Source: Herpomyces periplanetae (taxonomy: Eukaryota; Ascomycota; Laboulbeniomycetes; Herpomycetales; Herpomycetaceae). Taken from it: 64,000 nucleotides of DNA. The position numbers were made by a program, and so were the translations under genes. The stretch is taken from positions 47,828 to 111,827 of the forward strand of contig WMKJ01000033.1 in the NCBI GenBank assembly GCA_009733715.1. Direction: 5' to 3'. Each line of letters begins with the position of its first letter. Position 1 is the stretch's first letter. The notes below the pieces were generated by a model. That model was not told the DNA's origin. It ran no database searches and was given only the letters and a program-made list of their open reading frames with translations. Shown one piece after another: positions 28,468 to 58,431 of the stretch.

Positions 28468-30720
28468 ATGATGCGAAACTTGATTATTTTGACCATAATT
28501 GGGATAAGTGGCTTTAAGGCAGATATTCCAGAAGCCTATCGCAATCCACCACAATTATTACCATTGTTCATGTATACACCGGAAAAGGTTAACCAAGTAT
28601 CAGAGGAAAAGCATGGTAAACTTCTTCGAGTTGTAGATGAGATTGTAGCGACGGTTCCAATGGAAAATGCTACATTTGAAAATACAGTATTGCCAACAAT
28701 ACAGGTGGACAATGAGATTTATAAAGAGCTTTACACTATGTACACACTTCAATACATGATGCCGGATCCTGCGTTGCGTGAAGCTAGCATGGCAGCTTCA
28801 CGATTAGCGGATGAGGTATCCATTAAAATTGATACAAGGGAAGATTATGCAAATTTGGTGAAAGCAGCATTTAAATCAAGTTCAACACAAGGGCTCAAAG
28901 AAAGGGATCCTGAAGCGTACTTAATTATTTCAAGAATGGTTGATGGGTACAAGAGAAATGGAATTGACATACCAGCAGGACCGAAACGAGATCGGTTTGT
29001 CGAACTCATGAATAAAATGGTTGTCAATCTTAGCAAGTATAATGAACAAAAGGTGAACTTAGTATCTGGAATTGAATTAACGCCGGATGAGCTAAAGGGA
29101 GTGTCGAATAAAACGTTAGCACAATTTGAGAGAAACCGAAAGAATGGGGACTATTATATATCGTTTACGCCTAAGAATCAATTAGGATTGATTCGAGAAT
29201 TGACTAATGCAACGGTTCGGGAAAAGCTGATGGTTGGATGGGAAAATCGCTGCAATGAAAGTATACCAATATATAAGGAAGTTTTAAAAGACAGGCATGA
29301 GATAAGTTTACTGCTTGGGTATAAGAATTATGCAGAAGTGAAATTGGCTACTCGGATGGCACGAACTCCAGAAGCGGTGATGGAGTTTTTGACGGATCTC
29401 AAGGAGAATTTAGAAAGTGGAAAGCAAAGGGAATTGGATGAATTGCTGCAATTAAAGAAAAAAGAAGCTGAAGAAATCGGAGTGGAACTAACGGGAGACA
29501 CGGATAAGTTGTATATTTGGGATTGGATTTACTATACATCCAAGTTGGTTCCTGCAGACCGACCAGCAAAACAGTTCAGTTACTATTTTCCTTATCGAAC
29601 GTTTATGAATGGCATGATGGAAACTCTGGAAGGAATATTCAGTATTAAATTCGTGCGACTTGATCATGAAAGTATCAGTACACTTAGTCCGTCGGGAAAA
29701 GCCGACGATATAGTGTGGAATCCCGACGTTGAAGTGTACAGTGTTTGGAATGACAAAGAAGCAGGTAATGATTTTCTGGGATATTTATTTCTAGAATTGT
29801 TCAATCGTGAAGGTAAACGGACCCATCCTTCTCAATATACGGTGGTGCCTGGCTTTGAAAATGGTGATAAATCAAGAACGTATCCCGTAGCTCTAGTAAT
29901 GATGGGAATAGACAAATCCAAATATAACGATAGTACTCTATTGGGACTTTATGAAGTTCGAACTATTTTCCACGAATGTGGTCATGCAGTTCATACTCTT
30001 GTCAGCAGAACAAAGTACGGAGCTTTACATGGAACTAATGTTGCGACGGATTTTGTTGAAGCTCCAAGTCAAATGTTGGAAAACTGGGCTCAAGATCGTG
30101 AAGTTTTGAATCGAATAAGTTCGCATGTAGCCTACGAAAGCCCCCAAACCGAAGAGATTTGGCGTAGCAGTCTGACAGAAGACGACAAGGCCAAATATCC
30201 TCCCGGCCAGCTTCCTCCTCGAAAGATCCCCAAAGATGTAGTTGACGATGTTATGGAATATTTGAGTTCCGACTTTCTTTCGAACCAGCTTCAGCTGGCC
30301 CTGGGATTTGCCGATATGGCTGTTCATCAGCTCAACCTGTATCCCGATCCCAATTCCATCAACGTTGCTGCAATCTTCAATCGAATCCGCCTGGATATGC
30401 TTGGAATGTACGGTCCAAACAATACATCTGGGTCAAGCCCCGACAACATGCTGGATTACGGTCATCAATATGCCTGTTTTGGCCATTTAATGGCAGGATA
30501 CGCTGCGGGCTACTACGGTTATTTCTGGAGTCAAGTTTATTCTCTCGATATGTACGCTGCAAACTTTGCTGCCGACCCCATGAATCCTGCTTCTGGTCTA
30601 CGCTACCGTAAGGCCATCCTAGAACCCGGCGGTTCCGTAGATATGGATGCTGCTCTTCGTTCATTTCTAGGTCGTCCCCCCAATAAAGATGCTTTCTACA
30701 AAAAACTCGGGATTGCTTAA
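28468..30720 (+). CDS. Secreted M3-family metallopeptidase (saccharolysin/thimet oligopeptidase type)
   Basis: Zinc oligopeptidase cleaving short peptides. Single exon, 750 residues. The start gives a hydrophobic leader (LIILTIIGISGFKA), a probable signal peptide, whereas most family members are cytosolic or mitochondrial. The catalytic site is intact: HECGH at 502-506 (zinc ligands and catalytic Glu503), and third zinc ligand Glu531 in DFVEAPSQMLENW, as in fungal Prd1. The C-terminal domain has GHLMAGYAAGYYGYFWSQVY, typical of M3A peptidases. It stands directly upstream of a paralogue that lacks the active site. Base composition changes inside the gene near 30,130: the first two-thirds is purine-rich with A/T-ending codons, the last 600 bp pyrimidine-rich with more C-ending codons. 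Substrate unknown. Confidence 0.92.
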   Translation: MMRNLIILTIIGISGFKADIPEAYRNPPQLLPLFMYTPEKVNQVSEEKHGKLLRVVDEIVATVPMENATFENTVLPTIQVDNEIYKELYTMYTLQYMMPDPALREASMAASRLADEVSIKIDTREDYANLVKAAFKSSSTQGLKERDPEAYLIISRMVDGYKRNGIDIPAGPKRDRFVELMNKMVVNLSKYNEQKVNLVSGIELTPDELKGVSNKTLAQFERNRKNGDYYISFTPKNQLGLIRELTNATVREKLMVGWENRCNESIPIYKEVLKDRHEISLLLGYKNYAEVKLATRMARTPEAVMEFLTDLKENLESGKQRELDELLQLKKKEAEEIGVELTGDTDKLYIWDWIYYTSKLVPADRPAKQFSYYFPYRTFMNGMMETLEGIFSIKFVRLDHESISTLSPSGKADDIVWNPDVEVYSVWNDKEAGNDFLGYLFLELFNREGKRTHPSQYTVVPGFENGDKSRTYPVALVMMGIDKSKYNDSTLLGLYEVRTIFHECGHAVHTLVSRTKYGALHGTNVATDFVEAPSQMLENWAQDREVLNRISSHVAYESPQTEEIWRSSLTEDDKAKYPPGQLPPRKIPKDVVDDVMEYLSSDFLSNQLQLALGFADMAVHQLNLYPDPNSINVAAIFNRIRLDMLGMYGPNNTSGSSPDNMLDYGHQYACFGHLMAGYAAGYYGYFWSQVYSLDMYAANFAADPMNPASGLRYRKAILEPGGSVDMDAALRSFLGRPPNKDAFYKKLGIA

Positions 30721-31267
30721 CAGTCTCGTTCTCATCACGTCCTTCAATATCGTGATCCCCACCCAATTCTCTCGTTGAATATCCTTTGCTCATTCTGCTC
30801 ACTTTCTTTGCATAAGGGCTCCGGCTTATAGCTTATTCTTTCATTAAATTCTCCCTCACCTTGCTATATCATGCCACCCATGCCTTATACATTCATTTAC
30901 CAAAAGCCCATTTCCATTTTCCCATCCTCCAATATTTTATACGTGCACTAGTTTTGTGCCCTTTTTGTTGCTAAGTTTCTAATATACTTGTACACTTTAA
31001 TTCTTCATTCCCAATTCCAAAAATTTCTATGCTTCCAACTTCCTTAGGACTGTATTTCCTAATCTAGTAATGCATTCATCCAAAGTAATCTTCCAATGGA
31101 CCGCATAGTTTTAATTATTCTTTTCATTATGCGCAATTTTCTTCGCTCTTCACGCCCTGCTGTTGTTTTCCCCAAAAACTATCTTATATTGCCTTCTGTT
31201 TCCTCCTTTTCTCTCACCGTATAACTTCAATTCCGGTGTCTTTCCCCATCTATACTTCCAATCCTTC
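30721..31267. other. Spacer between the tandem M3 genes
   Basis: Pyrimidine-rich on the plus strand, no gene seen. It must hold the terminator of the first M3 gene and the promoter of the second. Confidence 0.5.
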
Positions 31268-33659
31268 ATGGCTCCCAAATCCCTTCTTTTCGATTCTTTT
31301 TCCTCCCTACTCCTCTCCGCTACATTTCCCTTTTTACTTTCTGTTGCTCAGGGAAGCAAATTACCCTTCTTACCCACCTTTTCCCTCAGCAATACCTCCA
31401 TTCAGCGAATCGTTAATGAAACGGTAATTTACTTTCCTCCCCTCACAATTCACCTTTGATTTAGCATGCACCGTTACCTTAATTTCTAACCATTCTCCAC
31501 ACAGATCAGTCACCATATCTATCTACGAAATTTTATCGATGGCAATACAAACTCATCCGACACCCAAACCTTCCACAATACAGTTTGGCCTCTTGAATTT
31601 GAATCTCAATCTTCTACATACGATACATGTATACTTGAATCTATCGCTACCTTTTCAAGTAATTCTGTCCTACGACAACTTTGCACTCAAGGTCTCGCCA
31701 AAATCAATCAACTTACCGGCGTTAAATCATGGCCCATCAATTTCGCTCGCAAGGTTTTGTCCATAAACGGTTCCGATCCAACTTCCAGACTCTCCTCACC
31801 CCACCCCCTCCAGGACAATAAACTGTTAACCCATGTACATCGAATCATGAAACAAGCCGGTCTCCACTTACCCAATGATACCCAGCGGGACGCCTTGCGT
31901 GAACTTGATGATCGTATCAATCAATTAACTCACAACTTCACCACCATGTTCACCTTACCCATTACGTACAGCGAATATTCTCCCAAGAACTTTTCCTACT
32001 TTTACACTCCCTGGCATGCTACACACCCCTCTTCCCCCAATTTATCCTCCCTTGTTAACGATACTTCTCTCCAAAGAAAGCTCATCCACCGTCAGATGAA
32101 TGAGATATGTAAACAAAACCTTGAATCCTTGCACAATATCGCCATGGCTCGTAATCAACTTGCCGATAAAATGGGTTACAAAAACTTCCTAGATTTTGCC
32201 TTGGAAGGTCAAACTATAGGCGGAATTCCTCAACTTTACAACCTTCTAACAAATATGACCCAATTGCTACACCCGTTTAGACTGAAAAAACTTGGACAGC
32301 TGGAAAAACAACCGCTTTCCCAGTCAACACAAATTAGTTATCCCTATTCTGCTCACAATGATCTAAATATATGGGACATTCCTCGACTCTTTCACCCGCC
32401 CAAGCCGTCTCCCCCTCGACCCGATGGACTAACTTTCGAACAATTTTACCCATTCCGTCACACTCGCGACAAAATCATGCTCCTCTTCTCCGAGTTTCTC
32501 GGTCTAAATATCACCCTATTAGACAAAACTACCAGGTCAACTTTATCCCATAATGCTAAATCTTCTAAACCGAGTGAAGATCTCGTATGGAGTCCACATG
32601 TGGATATATTCGCCATCTCCAGCGATACTAAGAATGATAAACGCTTCTTGGGTTACTTATACATGGATTATAATTCTACTGACAACAGTGACGATGGAAC
32701 GTTCAACAGCGTCCAGGTTCGTACCATTAGACCTGGATTTTCAGTGTCTCGCGATAAATGGAGTCCGTCTATCGTAGCCATTATTGTTCCGTACACCATG
32801 AATACCGACTTTACTACACTACTCGATTACCGAAAACTTCAGTCTCTTTTGCGCGGTACCGCTAAAGCCCTAATAAATATACTCTCCAAAGGTCAATATC
32901 AATACTTTCGTCGTATTCCCGTTAACGATATAACCGATAGTGCTGTATACTCCGTCCTTGAATTTTGGTGTAAAAATATCGCTGTACAAATTAAACTTAG
33001 TACCCACGTTTCCACCATTGATGGTGAAGCTAAACGTCAATGGTACGCTGAACTAACCCCGGAGCAACGTACCAAAATCGATCAAAATGAACTTCCCCCC
33101 AAGACTATTCCACCACGTCTCGTACAAATCAAATCCTCAACAGAATTTCCTGAAATATTTGCCTTTACCGAAAGCTTGAGCAGAGCCTTGGTAGCCTTAA
33201 TGATGTATGATAGTTCAACTTTTGATGTGGATTTAAGTGAATTACCCCAAGCCTGGAAAAACCATCGAGAATTTTCCATGTTCATCGAACCCCGAGAGGA
33301 TTCTTATGACTCCGAATTGCCCGGTGACTATACATACGCATGTTTTGCTGAATTAGCCGGTCCCGGTATTTTGGAATTTTATCATGAACTTTGGTAAGTC
33401 TCCCCGTCACGATAATCCACCAATCCTAAACCCTTTTGCTAATTCGTACCATTACATCGATAGGGGAACGATCATTGCTGCAGAAATATATCATGTTTCA
33501 TTTAGCTATGATTCCTTGAATCGAACCCTTGGCCTTGATTTTCGTACCAAAATAATCGAAAATATACACCATCCCGAAATCATGACCTATATCAACGAAT
33601 ACATCGGCCATCCTGTAACACTAGACGGCTTTCTTTATTACTACCGATTGATCCATTAA
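31268..33659 (+). CDS. Secreted M3-family pseudopeptidase, zinc site lost
   Basis: Tandem paralogue of the neighbouring M3 peptidase. Exons 31268-31423, 31505-33393 and 33464-33659 give 746 residues, almost the length of its sister (750). The N-terminus (PKSLLFDSFSSLLLSATF, then PFLLSVAQG) is a probable signal peptide. Shared blocks include LADKMGYKNFLDFAL, SPHVDIFAISSDTKNDKRFLGYLY, LTPEQRTKIDQNELPPKTIP and YTYACFAELAGPGILEFYHE. At residues 502-506, exactly where the sister has HECGH, this protein reads RGTAK, and the DFVEAPSQ block is replaced by DITDSAVYSV. All zinc ligands are therefore gone, yet the frame is intact over 2.2 kb with well-formed introns. A catalytically dead, still expressed protein is the simplest reading. 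I start at MAPKSLL; an upstream in-frame extension exists but would bury the signal peptide. Confidence 0.85.
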
Positions 33660-33891
33660 CCATCTAAACTAACCGTGTGTCTGTTAATATGTTTCAACGT
33701 ACAGGCTCTCTCACACACCTATCCCCGTACATTCCCCTGAATATAGGGCTGCACACCTCATAATCCTATTCCCCATTTTCATCTTGACGTTACTTTATTC
33801 TGTTAAACTGTATCGCGTGCCAGTTAAATTACATTTGAGATGTCTGTACCGATCATTAGCAAAGTACACAGAATGATCATCGTTGGCATAG

Positions 33892-35559
33892 TTATATACG
33901 ACGTCGACTGCGTAGCGTAGACATGCGCTGACGCGGAAACTCTGGTGGACATTTCAGCTGTGCAATACGGTGTACTGCAGCTTCTGCTTTACTTCGTATA
34001 GCATACTTTTCGTACTGATTTTCCGGTACACGAGTAACCTGGCACCCCAATTCGCGATAATACTGCGTCATTCTACTCACCAATTCGTTTAGTTAATATT
34101 ACGATTTCCATAGATGCTTGAAAAATTCTATAAAAATAGATTAGATTAACCTACGCTTTATTTTCCAAGCCTAAATCATGCTTAAGATGGTAAAAATTAG
34201 TTGTCAATCCGTCAATGAGTAGAGCAAGGGCTGCTGCGTGCGTAATGATTAAATCTATATGCCATCGAGTTATCTCCCTAGTGCGAAACTAAATTAGTCT
34301 GCGCATGTTCACTCTTTGCAAAAATTACCACCCATATGTACCCATAAACCTACATACCCATCATTGGAAAATTTAGAACGCGAGCATTCCACCAAATTAA
34401 GCGTCCCCGGATACATTTTTTTAAAAACTTCGGGTTTAGGCCATCTTTTAGCAGACCGCTTCGCAGACGTTTTTGATCGTGACACGACATGATAAAGCTC
34501 AATTAAAAAGAGCAAGTACCGTAATAATTTCAAGCGTTCCACAGCTTGCGCCATCACGGTACTACTTGCTACTGAATCCATTTCGCAGTGGTCTACGCCA
34601 AAAACTTGAGGCAAGCCGGCACCCCGCAAGCGATGAGCAACGAAAATGCTACATGTGTCGATAGGCTTATTAGCGCTAAAACTTTCTTGCCACGGTTTCA
34701 ACGATATATTATGCAAGATTTGCTCGCCAAGTAACGATACCGCCGTATAGATTTGATCTGGCCTTTGTGCCGATAAATTTGCCCTTGGTACCGGCTTAGC
34801 TTCGCTTATCGCCATGTTCAGTATGCTTTTATCCGGAATATTAACCCCAGTTTCGGCCATATTTTCCAGTATAGCTGATTCCAGTTTACCTCTAACTTCT
34901 GCATTCTCATCCGTCATACTACGATTCAAATAACTTTCTTGCCGAGTTGAAATAATTTTTTTCATTTTCTTGTTACCAAATGTACTACCCAAGTCCTCGC
35001 GCATTTGTCGTGCATTACGAACATTTTCTGCCAACTGTTGTTGGTGCTGCTGCTGTTGTTGGGTATTGTCAAGTGCACTGCCCGATTCTAATGTAGTTGA
35101 ACCTGTCCCAGCATCTGTCGTTACTGGTGATGCGTAAAAATTTAATTTATGGGCTGGGATAACCTTAAGCTCCGCTGAGCCTGGGTCAAATACACCAACA
35201 TAATGCTTAAAGTAGCCATCTGGTGTCGCATGTGTTAACTCATTTCCACACACATCTAACTTAGCGTGCGCACGCGCATGTAAAAATAAAGCAGTCGGTT
35301 TAGGCCGCAAATCTGTCGTTCCTCGTAGCTTCGTCTTATCCAAATTTAATGACTCCGCCGTGTGTGCAAAAACTTTATATACTACGTCCGGCGTTAGTGA
35401 AAGACCTGGTGCTGTAGCCAGAATCGGATAATCGGCTACATTGTCGAGAATTTCAACGTTGGATGAAACGCACATATCTGGCCCTTCCTTTCGTTTAGAC
35501 AAATCTGGGACGTCCCCGTCTAATCCCGCCTCTTGTAAAGACCGTTTCAAAATGGCCAT
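33892..35559 (-). CDS. RPA49: RNA polymerase I subunit A49 (RPA49/POLR1E)
   Basis: Pol I-specific subunit needed for rDNA initiation and elongation. Exons 35559-34354, 34288-34155 and 34072-33892 give 506 residues. The N-terminal dimerisation part is followed by the family motif LGSTFGNKKMKKII and the linker, then the tandem winged-helix region in RWPKPEVFKKMYP, exon 2 (RWHIDLIITHAAALALLIDG) and exon 3 (MTQYYRELGCQV). A Gln-rich run (QQQQQHQQQ) interrupts the N-terminal half. Donor GTAGGT is used twice; it is the only choice that links exon 1 to exon 2 in frame. The last acceptor offers two AGs three bases apart (GAGTAG), both in frame. Start chosen at MAILKRS, the first ATG in the frame. Confidence 0.88.
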
Positions 35560-35687
35560 TAACACTTTCAGCAATTTAAATCTCAATAAATCCTTTTCAA
35601 TTTCCAAACCATAAATGACAACTTGCTAATCAACTGTACAAATTCGTCAAATCCATCTCGAAAATTAGTTAAATTACAAGGTAAAGT

Positions 35688-54446: not shown

Positions 54447-56391
54447 ATTGTGATGGAGTACCATGTTGTTTAACACATTTATTATTGCGATGAGAACTCG
54501 ATAGAAATTGTCGAAGATGCCGCAGCCCGCCAAACCGGATTACCGTTATCAGGTCCGCTGCACAGCCTTTGGATAGACTGTACCTAACGCTGGAGTCGTC
54601 GGAGCAATGGGTAGAAGTGTTGGAATGGCATGGGGAAAGTTCGCTAAGATTAAATTTTTGTAGGAAGGATATCTGAGATGGTGAGGCAGGAAGTTGTCTC
54701 CAGGGAAGATTTTTGGAAATAAAATTTGGAGGAAATTTTCGAGTGGCAAAGTTATCAGCAAATTGGATAACCGACTCCAAGCTAGAGGAAGTATGAATTA
54801 TTCGGGCTCTTGTATATGTTAGAGAAACCTTTTCACCTTCGGTTTTACGCAATTTGGCCGTAAATGTTAATACGCATTCATCGTGAACCATCTTAATAGT
54901 TAGAAAACCCGTGTTAGGACATGCTAGAACAAATTTATCGAATTTTACATTAACCCATGCAAATTTGGAAAGACTGCGAATGTAGGAGTTGTCTAGAGTG
55001 CGGTGTAATAAGTCCTGGAATGAGGAGTAGTGGGCAAAGCCAAGTGTAAGATTTTCAAGATTAGCATAAGGTAAGGATGGAGAGGATTTTGATCTTCTTG
55101 GAAGTTTAGTTGCTTCAGTGGATGCCAGGGACGAATGTCTGAGGGGAGATTGTGGAGATGGTACGATGGAAGTTTGTAAGTTAAGAGGTTTAAAGGAAAA
55201 AACAGCTTTATCGATAGATGAAACAAAGTCGATAACTAGACAATCATCTTTTCCGGGATATAAACGCAGTCCTCTTCCGATAATTTGAAGCAGTGATGAA
55301 GTGGTATTGGTGGGGCGGAGTAAAAGGATGCAATCAACACAAGGGAGATCGACACCCTCGGTTAGTACGCCGCAGTTCAGTAAGACGGGAAATTCATTAC
55401 GTTGAAAGGATTGGAGCAGTGTTGAACGTTCGTGGTAACTAGTGCGGGCAATGACAAAGTGAGCATTGATTCCTCGGCGTAAAAACTCTTGGGTTAACGC
55501 TTGGGTATGGTCAACGTTAGCACAAAATACCAGGGTGGATCGGCGGTCTTGGGCCAACTTCAACCAAGTTCTTACGACAATTTCGTGTGAGGTTTGTGAA
55601 TTAATCAGGTGTAACGGTTGTTTGATGGCGGGAGACTTGGGGAGAGTTGAAATCAGGTTTGGCAAGGTTAACGAAGTAAACTTGACGTTGCATAAATATT
55701 TTAATTGGAGCATATCAGGTAAAGACATTGAATAGGCGACAGTATCAAAAATCCGATTTAAAGAAGTAGGCTGATCATCCGAGACGAAGGATGCAGAGAG
55801 TCCGAGTAAAACTGGTGATGAGTTTGGCGATTGATTTATATCTAATAGATTAAAATAATTGAGGATCTTTTGGTAATTAGGAGCCAAGGCGTGATGAGCT
55901 TCGTCGATGATGATTAACTTAACGTTAGCAGGATTAAATCTTGAAAGACGATTACACTTGGATAGACTTTGGTGGGAAGCGAGGACAATGTTTGAACTTG
56001 ATGGACAAGCGTGAGAAGAAGCCATTTCGATGTCTAATTTAAGGTGGGGATTTATTTGCCGACAGGCGACGGCAGCTTGGTAAATCAATTCTAAGCGATG
56101 GGATAGAACAAGGGTTTGAAACCTTTGGTGATGATTGTGCACACGATTGATAAGGTTTGTATAAATCAAAGTTTTGCCACTACCCGTGGGAAGCGATACG
56201 GCGATTCGACGATTGCCTTGGGAAATTGAGGAAAGGATAGCCTGAATGCATTGTTCTTGGTATTCACGAAGAGGAGGGGGCTGAGGTAAGGGTGTCTGAT
56301 TTGAATAGGTGAGCCGACTAAATTTGGAAGGGAAGGTAGATTTGGAGCGAAGTATGAAACATGATACAGAGCTTGAGAAGAGCCAGAACAT
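54433..56391 (-). CDS. IRC3: Irc3-type mitochondrial DEAH helicase
   Basis: Superfamily 2 helicase needed for mitochondrial DNA maintenance in yeast. Single exon, 652 residues. The N-terminus (MFWLFSSSVSCFILRSKSTF) is hydroxylated, basic and free of acidic residues, fitting a mitochondrial presequence. Helicase motifs: REYQEQCIQAILSS (Q-like), Walker A LPTGSGKT (67-74), DEAH (163-166), GLSASFVSDDQP, LVFCANVDHTQAL, LNCGVLTEGVDLPCVDCILL and QIIGRGLRLYPGKDDCLVID. The arrangement and the RLYPGKDDCLVIDF segment match fungal Irc3. A long C-terminal domain follows, with conserved aromatic blocks (FAWVNVKFDKF). The 3' end overlaps the PI4K gene by 14 bp. Confidence 0.9.
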   Translation of the reverse strand: MFWLFSSSVSCFILRSKSTFPSKFSRLTYSNQTPLPQPPPLREYQEQCIQAILSSISQGNRRIAVSLPTGSGKTLIYTNLINRVHNHHQRFQTLVLSHRLELIYQAAVACRQINPHLKLDIEMASSHACPSSSNIVLASHQSLSKCNRLSRFNPANVKLIIIDEAHHALAPNYQKILNYFNLLDINQSPNSSPVLLGLSASFVSDDQPTSLNRIFDTVAYSMSLPDMLQLKYLCNVKFTSLTLPNLISTLPKSPAIKQPLHLINSQTSHEIVVRTWLKLAQDRRSTLVFCANVDHTQALTQEFLRRGINAHFVIARTSYHERSTLLQSFQRNEFPVLLNCGVLTEGVDLPCVDCILLLRPTNTTSSLLQIIGRGLRLYPGKDDCLVIDFVSSIDKAVFSFKPLNLQTSIVPSPQSPLRHSSLASTEATKLPRRSKSSPSLPYANLENLTLGFAHYSSFQDLLHRTLDNSYIRSLSKFAWVNVKFDKFVLACPNTGFLTIKMVHDECVLTFTAKLRKTEGEKVSLTYTRARIIHTSSSLESVIQFADNFATRKFPPNFISKNLPWRQLPASPSQISFLQKFNLSELSPCHSNTSTHCSDDSSVRYSLSKGCAADLITVIRFGGLRHLRQFLSSSHRNNKCVKQHGTPSQFNNS

Positions 56392-56670
56392 GACTTAACG
56401 ACTTACGTTTACGCGTATAGTTGGAAGATGTAATGGATAAAGTAGGTGATAGGTTCAAGAGAGGATATAAGCGATTATTAGTAGATGGATGAAAGGGACG
56501 GCGGGGCGGGAGGAGAAGATAACGTTTCTTTTTCCCTAGGGTAAAGGGTATTGAAAAATGGGGGAATTATGAGGCATGATTGAGGAAGTTTAGTTGAAGG
56601 AATTGATGAAGCTTTAGGATAATCCTGCGACGTCAGAATATTGGGAAAAAGTTATTTAGTCAAAAGAAGA

Positions 56671-58431
56671 ATGGAAGAAAAGAAAGTAGAAGAAGTGGCA
56701 AGGGGGGAGCGGGAGAATTTATACAAAGAAACAGAAGGCAAGCGAGCAAGAGTGGAAGGAACGAGAGTCTCTGAATCCAGCAAGCGCATCCGGTTAGGCG
56801 AGAACAGATTTGGTTGTGGGAAGAGCAATATTGCAAGCGAACTTTTGGAGTATTGGGATATATTGTTGGAGGAGAGTTCACGGGTTTTTGGGGAAGATGG
56901 TGGGAGTGAAGAAGAGGTATGGGGTGAGGGGAGGGAAGGGTTTGAGGAATCGAAAATTGGAGTGTCAGTATGGAGTGTCAATGAAAAAAGTAGATTTTTT
57001 CGTGGGTTAAGAAAGTTTGGGAGACATGAAATTGAAAAGATATGCGACTTGGTTAACGGGAGAAAAGGGCGATTGGAATATGAAAATCAGAATATAACTA
57101 GAGGCTCACGCAGGCAAAAGGTGGATGGGGATGAAGTGGTTTATAAGTCTATATTTGAATGTAGATTGTACGAAATGCGACTTAGAGCAAGTCTTGAGAG
57201 AGCGATGGAAGAAATTGAAGTAAAACGATTAGTATTTCGGGCAAATGGGGCTTGTGAATTCGCGATGGAAGTTGGCAATTTTCAAGTTGAAAGTGAAAAT
57301 GCAAGTAGTGATGCTAGGGGCATATGTGCAGATGAGGTTATAGGGAGAGGAGAAAATTATCCCAATGAAGAGGAAGTGGGCGTGGGTAGCTCAAGGGAAG
57401 AGTTACTGAGTTATAGAGAAATTCCAGCAGCTTTTGAAGTTCAGGAAAATGGACGGTTGTATAACTTCCTAGAGAGTGCAGCGGCGTACTGGACGAAGGT
57501 AACGTGGGAAATGGATGTTAAACGGGAAATTGAGGAATTTGGAGAATTTGCACTTTTGAATCAAAACATAGCGGATAGCCTGGGTACGGTTAAGCAAGCA
57601 AGAGAGAATGATTTACTTGATCATGTTAAATCGGCGAATTTACTGAATCTGGCAAACTTTCTTGTTTTATCTCGTAATATATTCATGTCACCGTTTGCAC
57701 CGTGCCCATCACCGTCGATTTTTCATTCGGCATTTGATGCTTTCCACAAAATTGTCGTTGATCTTGTGAGGAAAATTGTTCAAACTACTGTTAAACTTGC
57801 CGAACAAAGGGTTAATCCTTGCAGTGGGAATTTCAGCGAACTGGAAGCTTCATCACCATCAGTATCGGGACCTCATTTTCGTAAACGATTATTTCAGAGA
57901 TTTGTTAACAAATCTGACGTTAAGCTTGCGCTGAGTATATTAAATCTTGAAACCACGGCATTTAATTATTGGATTGACGTTGTGAAGCGGTACAAACTTT
58001 CCATTTATACTCGTCCTGTTCACTCGAATTCATCCCGGTATCCTATTTTTCTAACGGCTGATCAAGCACGTATAGCCTTACAGTATCAATCATCTAAATC
58101 CATGTATGCATATATTGAATCTCTTGTTTCCCATGATGAAAATAATTCGCCTAGCACGGTAGACTCATCCGGGGTATCAAGTTCACTGACTGATACTGAG
58201 GATGAAGAAATGTTGGAGGGTGTGGAAGATGATGATATAGATGCACTGGATATTGCTGAGTCCCGCTGTGAAGAACAGCGTCTATGTCAATTATTCAATT
58301 TGGATAATTCAATAATCCATCACGAAACTACCAAATTTCGGCAGGTGAAATCATTTGAAGATCTGCGTGATTTTCACCGTGCGAGTTGGTCCGATGCACA
58401 TATTAATCAATATCCGCATTTACAAAGTTAA
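56671..58431 (+). CDS. SANT-like protein, possibly Rrn5 (Pol I upstream factor)
   Basis: Single exon, 586 residues from MEEKKVEEVARGE; the frame opens earlier but only at TTG. The N-terminal 60 residues are basic, nuclear-localisation-like. A SANT/Myb-like helix set sits near residues 98-135: SVWSVNEKSRFFRGLRKFGR followed by HEIEKICDLV. The preceding LLEYWDILLEE and following YKSIFECRLYEMRL fit the layout of Rrn5, a subunit of the Pol I upstream activation factor. The similarity is weak and other SANT proteins remain possible. The C-terminal half has LLNLANFLVLSRNIFMSPFA, then an acidic stretch (LTDTEDEEMLEGVEDDDIDA). Coding-strand composition flips from purine-rich to pyrimidine-rich near 57,650, inside the gene. 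It shares a 280 bp divergent promoter with Irc3. Confidence 0.55.
   Translation: MEEKKVEEVARGERENLYKETEGKRARVEGTRVSESSKRIRLGENRFGCGKSNIASELLEYWDILLEESSRVFGEDGGSEEEVWGEGREGFEESKIGVSVWSVNEKSRFFRGLRKFGRHEIEKICDLVNGRKGRLEYENQNITRGSRRQKVDGDEVVYKSIFECRLYEMRLRASLERAMEEIEVKRLVFRANGACEFAMEVGNFQVESENASSDARGICADEVIGRGENYPNEEEVGVGSSREELLSYREIPAAFEVQENGRLYNFLESAAAYWTKVTWEMDVKREIEEFGEFALLNQNIADSLGTVKQARENDLLDHVKSANLLNLANFLVLSRNIFMSPFAPCPSPSIFHSAFDAFHKIVVDLVRKIVQTTVKLAEQRVNPCSGNFSELEASSPSVSGPHFRKRLFQRFVNKSDVKLALSILNLETTAFNYWIDVVKRYKLSIYTRPVHSNSSRYPIFLTADQARIALQYQSSKSMYAYIESLVSHDENNSPSTVDSSGVSSSLTDTEDEEMLEGVEDDDIDALDIAESRCEEQRLCQLFNLDNSIIHHETTKFRQVKSFEDLRDFHRASWSDAHINQYPHLQS

Follow-up and report, generated by a model that had tools for sequence, protein, structure and literature searches.

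A zinc-less tandem paralogue of an M3 metallopeptidase in Herpomyces periplanetae, probably an exported pseudopeptidase

Two genes encoding proteins of the metallopeptidase family M3 lie head to tail on the same strand, separated by a gap of 547 bases, within a stretch of 64,000 nucleotides from the ascomycete Herpomyces periplanetae (contig WMKJ01000033.1, positions 47,828 to 111,827, forward strand; here called the window). The upstream sister gene (g1, 28468-30720) is intact and carries the zinc motif HECGH, whereas the downstream gene (g2, 31268-33659) has RGTAK in its place. The locus raises the question what a full-length M3 protein without its zinc site is kept for. We consider it highly probable that g2 encodes an inactive, selected and exported pseudopeptidase as such, and the best overall explanation, which we hold to be probable, is that it binds something rather than cutting it. 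The features concerned are the following, in positions of the window:

28468..30720, + strand: g1, M3 peptidase of the thimet/neurolysin type with HECGH; one exon, 750 amino acids, hydrophobic segment at the N-terminus
29971..29985, + strand: HECGH zinc/catalytic motif of g1, residues 502-506
30049..30072, + strand: DFVEAPSQ block of g1, residues 528-535, containing E531, presumably the downstream zinc-ligand Glu by its role in the M3 family
30484..30522, + strand: C-terminal helix of g1 with its conserved His and Tyr, residues 673-685 (alignment)
31268..31423, + strand: g2 exon 1, 52 codons, N-terminal hydrophobic segment, plausible signal peptide (hydropathy)
31424..31504, + strand: g2 intron 1, GT..AG, 81 bases
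31505..33393, + strand: g2 exon 2, 629 codons plus 2 bases, bulk of the M3 fold (Pfam, AlphaFold2 (AF2) model, fold searches)
32828..32884, + strand: helix of g2 at residues 494-512, the counterpart of the zinc helix (AF2 model residues 442-460, +52)
32852..32866, + strand: RGTAK of g2, residues 502-506, replacing HExxH (translation, profile alignment, gapless sliding)
32930..32953, + strand: ITDSAVYS of g2, residues 528-535, replacing DFVEAPSQ (17-sequence alignment)
33008..33103, + strand: g2 residues 554-585, holding the inserted segment W..(E/Q)LPP..IP (17-sequence alignment)
33350..33388, + strand: C-terminal substrate helix of g2 (residues 668-680), in which other residues stand for the conserved His and most of the Tyr (alignments)
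33394..33463, + strand: g2 intron 2, GT..AG, 70 bases, splitting the W682 codon
33464..33659, + strand: g2 exon 3, which completes the M3 fold at its C-terminus and holds the stop codon (profile match)

To establish what has been lost from g2, its alignment to g1 has to be secure. Its membership in M3 and its origin as a tandem paralogue, as proposed in the first-pass annotation, were supported by several comparisons. The protein scored 57.6 bits against Pfam PF01432 (Peptidase_M3, residues 242-712), above the gathering cut-off of 27 (g1, 332 bits), and a sequence search of the PDB reached neurolysin (E 2.1e-7). Among the 17 proteins compared, g1 was the best match (phmmer, 114.6 bits; next, 50.9), with a BLAST identity of 21.6% over 611 columns. 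A profile built from g1, P0001, P0002 and P0003, with g2 excluded, aligned to g2 over residues 228-739 (136 bits), weakly also over 35-199 (10 bits), and placed RGTAK opposite HExGH at high posterior. When residues 490-525 of g1 were slid along g2 without gaps, the best offset was 490 (score 23; next 8; mean -34.7, standard deviation 12.8). As the best sliding offset is 490 itself and the g2-free profile agrees, the register of RGTAK and HECGH is not due to chance, and both analyses concur with the translation in placing RGTAK at 502-506, the residue numbers of HECGH in g1, as had been claimed. In addition, an inserted segment after residue 553 (W..LPP..IP) occurs in g2 and g1 and partly in P0001 and P0002, and is a gap in the other 13 of the 17 aligned sequences; g2 shares the inserted-loop feature of the g1 subgroup, i.e., fungal thimet-like proteins with an inserted loop. 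In the best tree g1 and g2 are paired (support 73/61), g2 on a long branch, and may be sisters; a close pairing of g2 with P0002 was neither favoured nor rejected by the tree test (p-AU, approximately unbiased test, 0.147). P0015 (47% coverage) was left out of the later alignments (A3/A4) and of the trees.

In this register H502, E503 and H506 of g1 are replaced by R, G and K, and D528, E531 and S534 by I, S and Y (17-sequence alignment), the DFVEAPSQ block reading ITDSAVYS. For M3A peptidases, the available text of one account places the Glu that serves as third zinc ligand within a downstream ExxS (PMC7804941); g2 lacks this Glu as well (E531 to S, S534 to Y). The erased zinc site and the lost Glu-containing block had both been noted earlier and stand. 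The loss reaches beyond the zinc site into the substrate helix, where the conserved His and all but one of four Tyr have changed: in the profile alignment His673 is changed to Glu, Tyr678 to Gly, Tyr682 to Phe and Tyr685 to Glu, while Tyr683 is kept. The 17-sequence alignment is offset by one residue in this helix compared to the profile alignment, and one Tyr is kept there too. Hence, thimet oligopeptidase and neurolysin (M3A; PDB 1s4b, 1i1i) differ from g2 in HExxH, the downstream Glu, and the substrate-helix His and three of four Tyr. In 15 active-site-region columns, hand-picked by the analyst from g1 positions, g2 keeps 2, g1 15, P0002 12 and each of the remaining 14 sequences at least 13. 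As the zinc ligands, the base and most substrate-holding residues are gone, M3-type hydrolysis by g2 can be excluded on established family knowledge, judging by its sequence. The gene combines lost catalytic residues with an intact frame, as expected of a pseudopeptidase.

No H[EDQ]xxH motif was found in the six frames of 31001-34000 or in the spliced g2 protein (motifs across unannotated junctions were not searched for), and restoration of HExxH by alternative splicing, a possibility considered at first pass, was rejected. The coding strand of g2 is pyrimidine-rich; drift in composition was judged an unlikely cause of the site loss, as the Arg, Gly and Lys of RGTAK run against it.

The frame itself is in good order. 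Joining 31268-31423, 31505-33393 and 33464-33659 gives a single open frame of 746 amino acids, with both introns GT..AG, and the full length and clean introns described for g2 were thus verified. Exon 3 extends the M3 profile match beyond the second splice, and W682, whose codon is split by intron 2, is Trp also in 13 of 16 relatives; the first splice is spanned by the weak match at residues 35-199. In a scan of the whole assembly (13.79 Mb in 220 contigs, a small genome), g2 was present as one copy with an open frame without stops, the only other match being g1. The assembly also gave three matches to chitin synthase and seven, from 8 candidates, to Fungal_trans (fungal-type transcription factors), as befits a fungus. 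The tandem sister g1 is intronless compared to the two introns of g2, and gain, loss or an origin as retrocopy are all possible.

Selection was gauged by survival of the frame and not by the ratio of nonsynonymous to synonymous substitution rates (dN/dS), as the g1 and g2 proteins are about 20% identical and synonymous sites between the genes are taken to be saturated. Neutral evolution of g2 was simulated (200 runs at each step; indels ignored, which makes it conservative), and the frame was still open in 41.5% of the runs at 0.01 substitutions per site, in 6% at 0.03, in 0.5% at 0.05 and in none at 0.1. With 3.53 on one side of the midpoint root and 0.28 on the other, the end branch of g2 is about 3.8 amino-acid changes per column long, compared to 0.93 for g1, and its identity to the relatives is 13-20% over the whole alignment. 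So brief a period without constraint is not plausibly long enough for the site to have been taken apart, and therefore the frame appears to have been maintained after activity was lost. Selection on g2 is thus supported indirectly, by its intactness at very high divergence.

The AF2 model of g2 exon 2 displays the helical clamshell of the thimet/neurolysin type, so that the M3 fold is kept in the model. The model of g1 is also helical at residues 494-512. The fold searches likewise matched ACE2 and viral proteins, representing the wider fold, and the exon 2 model matched four giant-virus-type proteins annotated as peptidase or M3 peptidase (Indivirus, Bodo saltans virus, Hokovirus and Hyperionvirus; E <= 0.001). 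The PDB titles retrieved include human neurolysin carrying an E-to-Q exchange, with peptide products, and an organellar oligopeptidase mutated likewise, with a substrate. By analogy, these structures make a non-cutting binder plausible in principle, g2 being far more altered.

With regard to export, both proteins begin with a hydrophobic segment, and the N-terminal hydropathy peak of g1 is distinct (2.53, compared to 1.66 elsewhere in the protein). N-glycosylation sequons number 13 in g2, a count attained in 18 of 2000 shuffled sequences (mean 6.4), and 8 in g1, attained in 91 of 2000 (mean 4.1), and the excess in g2 would agree with export. An M3 metalloprotease of Onygena corvina occurs in culture-broth fractions, according to the available part of the report, and provides a precedent for export of the active g1 protein; as its fraction degraded pig bristle and ethylenediaminetetraacetic acid (EDTA) strongly lowered the activity, it is taken to be an active enzyme and, unlike g2, not a pseudopeptidase (PMC4628079). 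Unlike g1 and g2 with their N-terminal hydrophobic segments, the thimet oligopeptidases of A. niger are described as cytosolic in the text available (PMC7804941).

The explanation that we favour starts from an exported M3 oligopeptidase of the thimet/neurolysin type, whose gene would have been duplicated in tandem to give rise to g2. Neither the two zinc His nor the catalytic Glu nor the Glu ligand downstream would have survived in this copy, and most of the His and Tyr that orient the substrate would have gone too, while the M3 clamshell fold and an intact, spliceable frame were retained long afterwards. Its product would be made, exported through the secretory pathway and glycosylated, would be devoid of M3-type peptidase activity, and may bind a peptide or protein uncut, outside the cell or within the secretory pathway, as a trap, a carrier or a cell-surface interaction protein. 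That g2 acts by binding has, in our view, somewhat better than an even chance. Since the canonical substrate-holding residues are also gone, plain competition with g1 for the same peptides is less likely, and we think that a remodelled channel or the outer surface would more likely form the binding face. The retained frame, fold and export signals would fit a binding function; the roles as decoy, regulator or receptor-like protein proposed at first pass are guesses.

Several observations weigh against this explanation. No evidence names a ligand. The protein has diverged everywhere and not at the site alone, because only 23 of 55 other conserved columns are kept; the difference from the active-site region (2 of 15 kept) is not significant (Fisher p 0.066), and preferential loss at the site was dropped as an argument. 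No NCBIfam family matches g2 exon 2. The AF2 alignment consisted of 16 M3 homologues, which biases the model toward the M3 fold, the model covers exon 2 alone, and its confidence is lower for g2 (74.8) than for g1 (86.5). The N-terminal hydropathy peak of g2 (2.12) is not distinctive, barely exceeding the maximum in the rest of the protein (2.05); the signal peptide claimed at first pass is plausible, judged by hydropathy. The codon score of g2 (0.033), although the best of its six frames, is below those of g1 (0.121) and of the mitochondrial-type M3 gene (0.118). In the search for orthologues, by which dN/dS was to be obtained, g1 gave 15 matches among 7996 candidates, and g2 alone as query gave none among the 7988 candidates scored; the case for selection is thus supported by the open frame at very high divergence and not by dN/dS. 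An alignment query (A1: g2 exon 2, g1, P0001, P0002 and P0003) found none among 6322 candidates, which says little as its own members were not returned. The candidate word filter is estimated to miss most relatives below about 45% identity, so that the absence of orthologues is weak evidence. Finally, a very recent death of g2 may still be compatible with the intact frame.

Among the other explanations, the one that survives best, although unlikely, is that g2 serves g1 specifically, as a partner or regulator that binds g1 or its substrates and tunes the activity of g1. The two genes are adjacent on one strand, they pair in the best tree, and they are all the M3 genes found in the genome apart from one. 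This third gene (L001, contig C212) encodes 831 amino acids with an intact HEMGH and a basic N-terminus, groups with P0014 in the tree (support 100/100), and is presumably a mitochondrial intermediate peptidase; thus, two of the three M3 genes found genome-wide carry an N-terminal hydrophobic segment and one is of mitochondrial type, and an ordinary cytosolic thimet-type enzyme was not among them. Neurolysin and thimet oligopeptidase are monomers, which counts against a regulatory partner. MPP of family M16 offers a precedent: its alpha subunit is inactive and works in the service of the beta subunit, which is active, as stated in the available part of a 2024 review (PMC11266112). However, adjacency is explained by tandem duplication alone, and with most substrate-holding residues lost from g2 competition for the same peptides is not favoured. 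A partnership of g1 and g2 is possible, on the grounds of adjacency; that both are secreted and work together as enzyme and pseudoenzyme, the inactive copy controlling or shielding peptides that g1 degrades, seems quite unlikely.

A dying or recently dead duplicate, the frame of which is open for want of time, appears improbable. It would account for the very long branch, the conserved columns lost throughout, the lack of a relative among the candidates scored, the weak codon score and the strong shift in base composition across the g2 stretch. However, a neutral phase beyond some 0.03-0.05 substitutions per site very probably leaves stops, yet 13 of the 15 active-site-region columns have changed, and the splice sites, the split conserved Trp codon and the M3-matching C-terminal exon all persist.

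That the old scaffold houses another enzyme activity, or a metal site formed anew, is very improbable. Some apparent pseudoenzymes have proved to be enzymes, as far as the review text at hand reports (PMC11266112), and His is abundant in g2 (26 from residue 29 onward, compared to 12 from residue 21 onward in g1); however, an HExxH-like motif is absent from the frames and the protein searched, and the enrichment accompanies a pyrimidine-rich coding strand with Ser, Thr, Phe, Leu and Ile also raised over g1. An artefact of gene model or assembly, with, e.g., another exon arrangement restoring the motif, could be imagined because the gene structure was read from DNA alone and the motif search did not extend across unannotated splice junctions, but can practically be dismissed, as RGTAK lies within one continuous open exon of 1889 bases, in register with g1 over 36 gapless residues, with no HExxH-like motif nearby in any frame and g2 present once as a stop-free open frame.

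Strand asymmetry is extreme in two stretches. The GC skew reaches -0.49 (1-kb window from 30751) in 30501-32500, across the 3' end of g1 and g2, and the third codon positions along g1 drift gradually from G-rich to C-rich; a skew of up to +0.57 (1-kb window from 56251) occurs in 56001-57500, around the gap between two divergent open reading frames (mean 0.07, standard deviation 0.19 across the window). Ten open reading frames of 7574-56391 scanned with Pfam were housekeeping-like and none was a peptidase: RNA polymerase I A49 (34309-35607), Rab GDI, seryl-tRNA synthetase, an AAA ATPase, a thioredoxin-domain protein, a PI kinase, a Gtr/Rag GTPase, an NSUN5-like methyltransferase, a helicase and a short-chain dehydrogenase. 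No tRNA or Rfam family was detected in the window.

Among known systems, Ecm14 (M14) is, by analogy, the closest fungal counterpart that we would put beside g2: in the available text it is secreted, devoid of detectable peptidase activity and conserved throughout the ascomycetes (PMC7706225), whereas for g2 the candidates scored yielded no orthologue; it also belongs to M14 and not M3 and, unlike g2, keeps its zinc-binding residues, according to the accessible part of the review (PMC11266112). The same source describes Gone early of Drosophila (M13), a member of an HExxH family in which all key active-site positions are substituted, as in g2; its extracellular part is needed and ligand trapping has been suggested (PMC11266112). 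Although it is, unlike g2, an M13 protein and an animal type II membrane protein, it may be the nearest analogy for the mode of action of g2. Within M3, the Conoideocrella luteorostrata homologue P0002 of the same inserted-loop group carries HQLGH in place of HExxH, with Ala standing where the C-terminal His would be; it differs from g2 in that both zinc His and the DFVEVPS block are retained, and is probably, by its sequence, another inactive fungal M3 protein.

The first-pass annotation knew of no precedent for such a protein. In agreement with this, the tables of the 2024 metallo-pseudopeptidase review, in the part available, name M1, M12, M13, M14, M15, M16, M24 and M41 but not M3, the terms family M3, thimet, neurolysin and oligopeptidase are absent from its text (PMC11266112), and a search of open-licence papers found none on an M3 pseudopeptidase; given the Conoideocrella relative, however, a degenerate M3 protein is not unique to this genome. 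MEROPS lists non-peptidase homologues in many families, and an annotated but unstudied M3 case may exist.

The finding concerns one gene in one genome. Together with g1 it provides a natural comparison by which to ask what an M3 channel can do in a protein that does not cut. The Conoideocrella HQLGH protein suggests that losses of the M3 site recur in fungi. If the two genes do act as an enzyme/pseudoenzyme pair, g2 would be the first M3 pseudopeptidase with a function, and similarly degenerate M3 proteins would be arising in other fungi as well.
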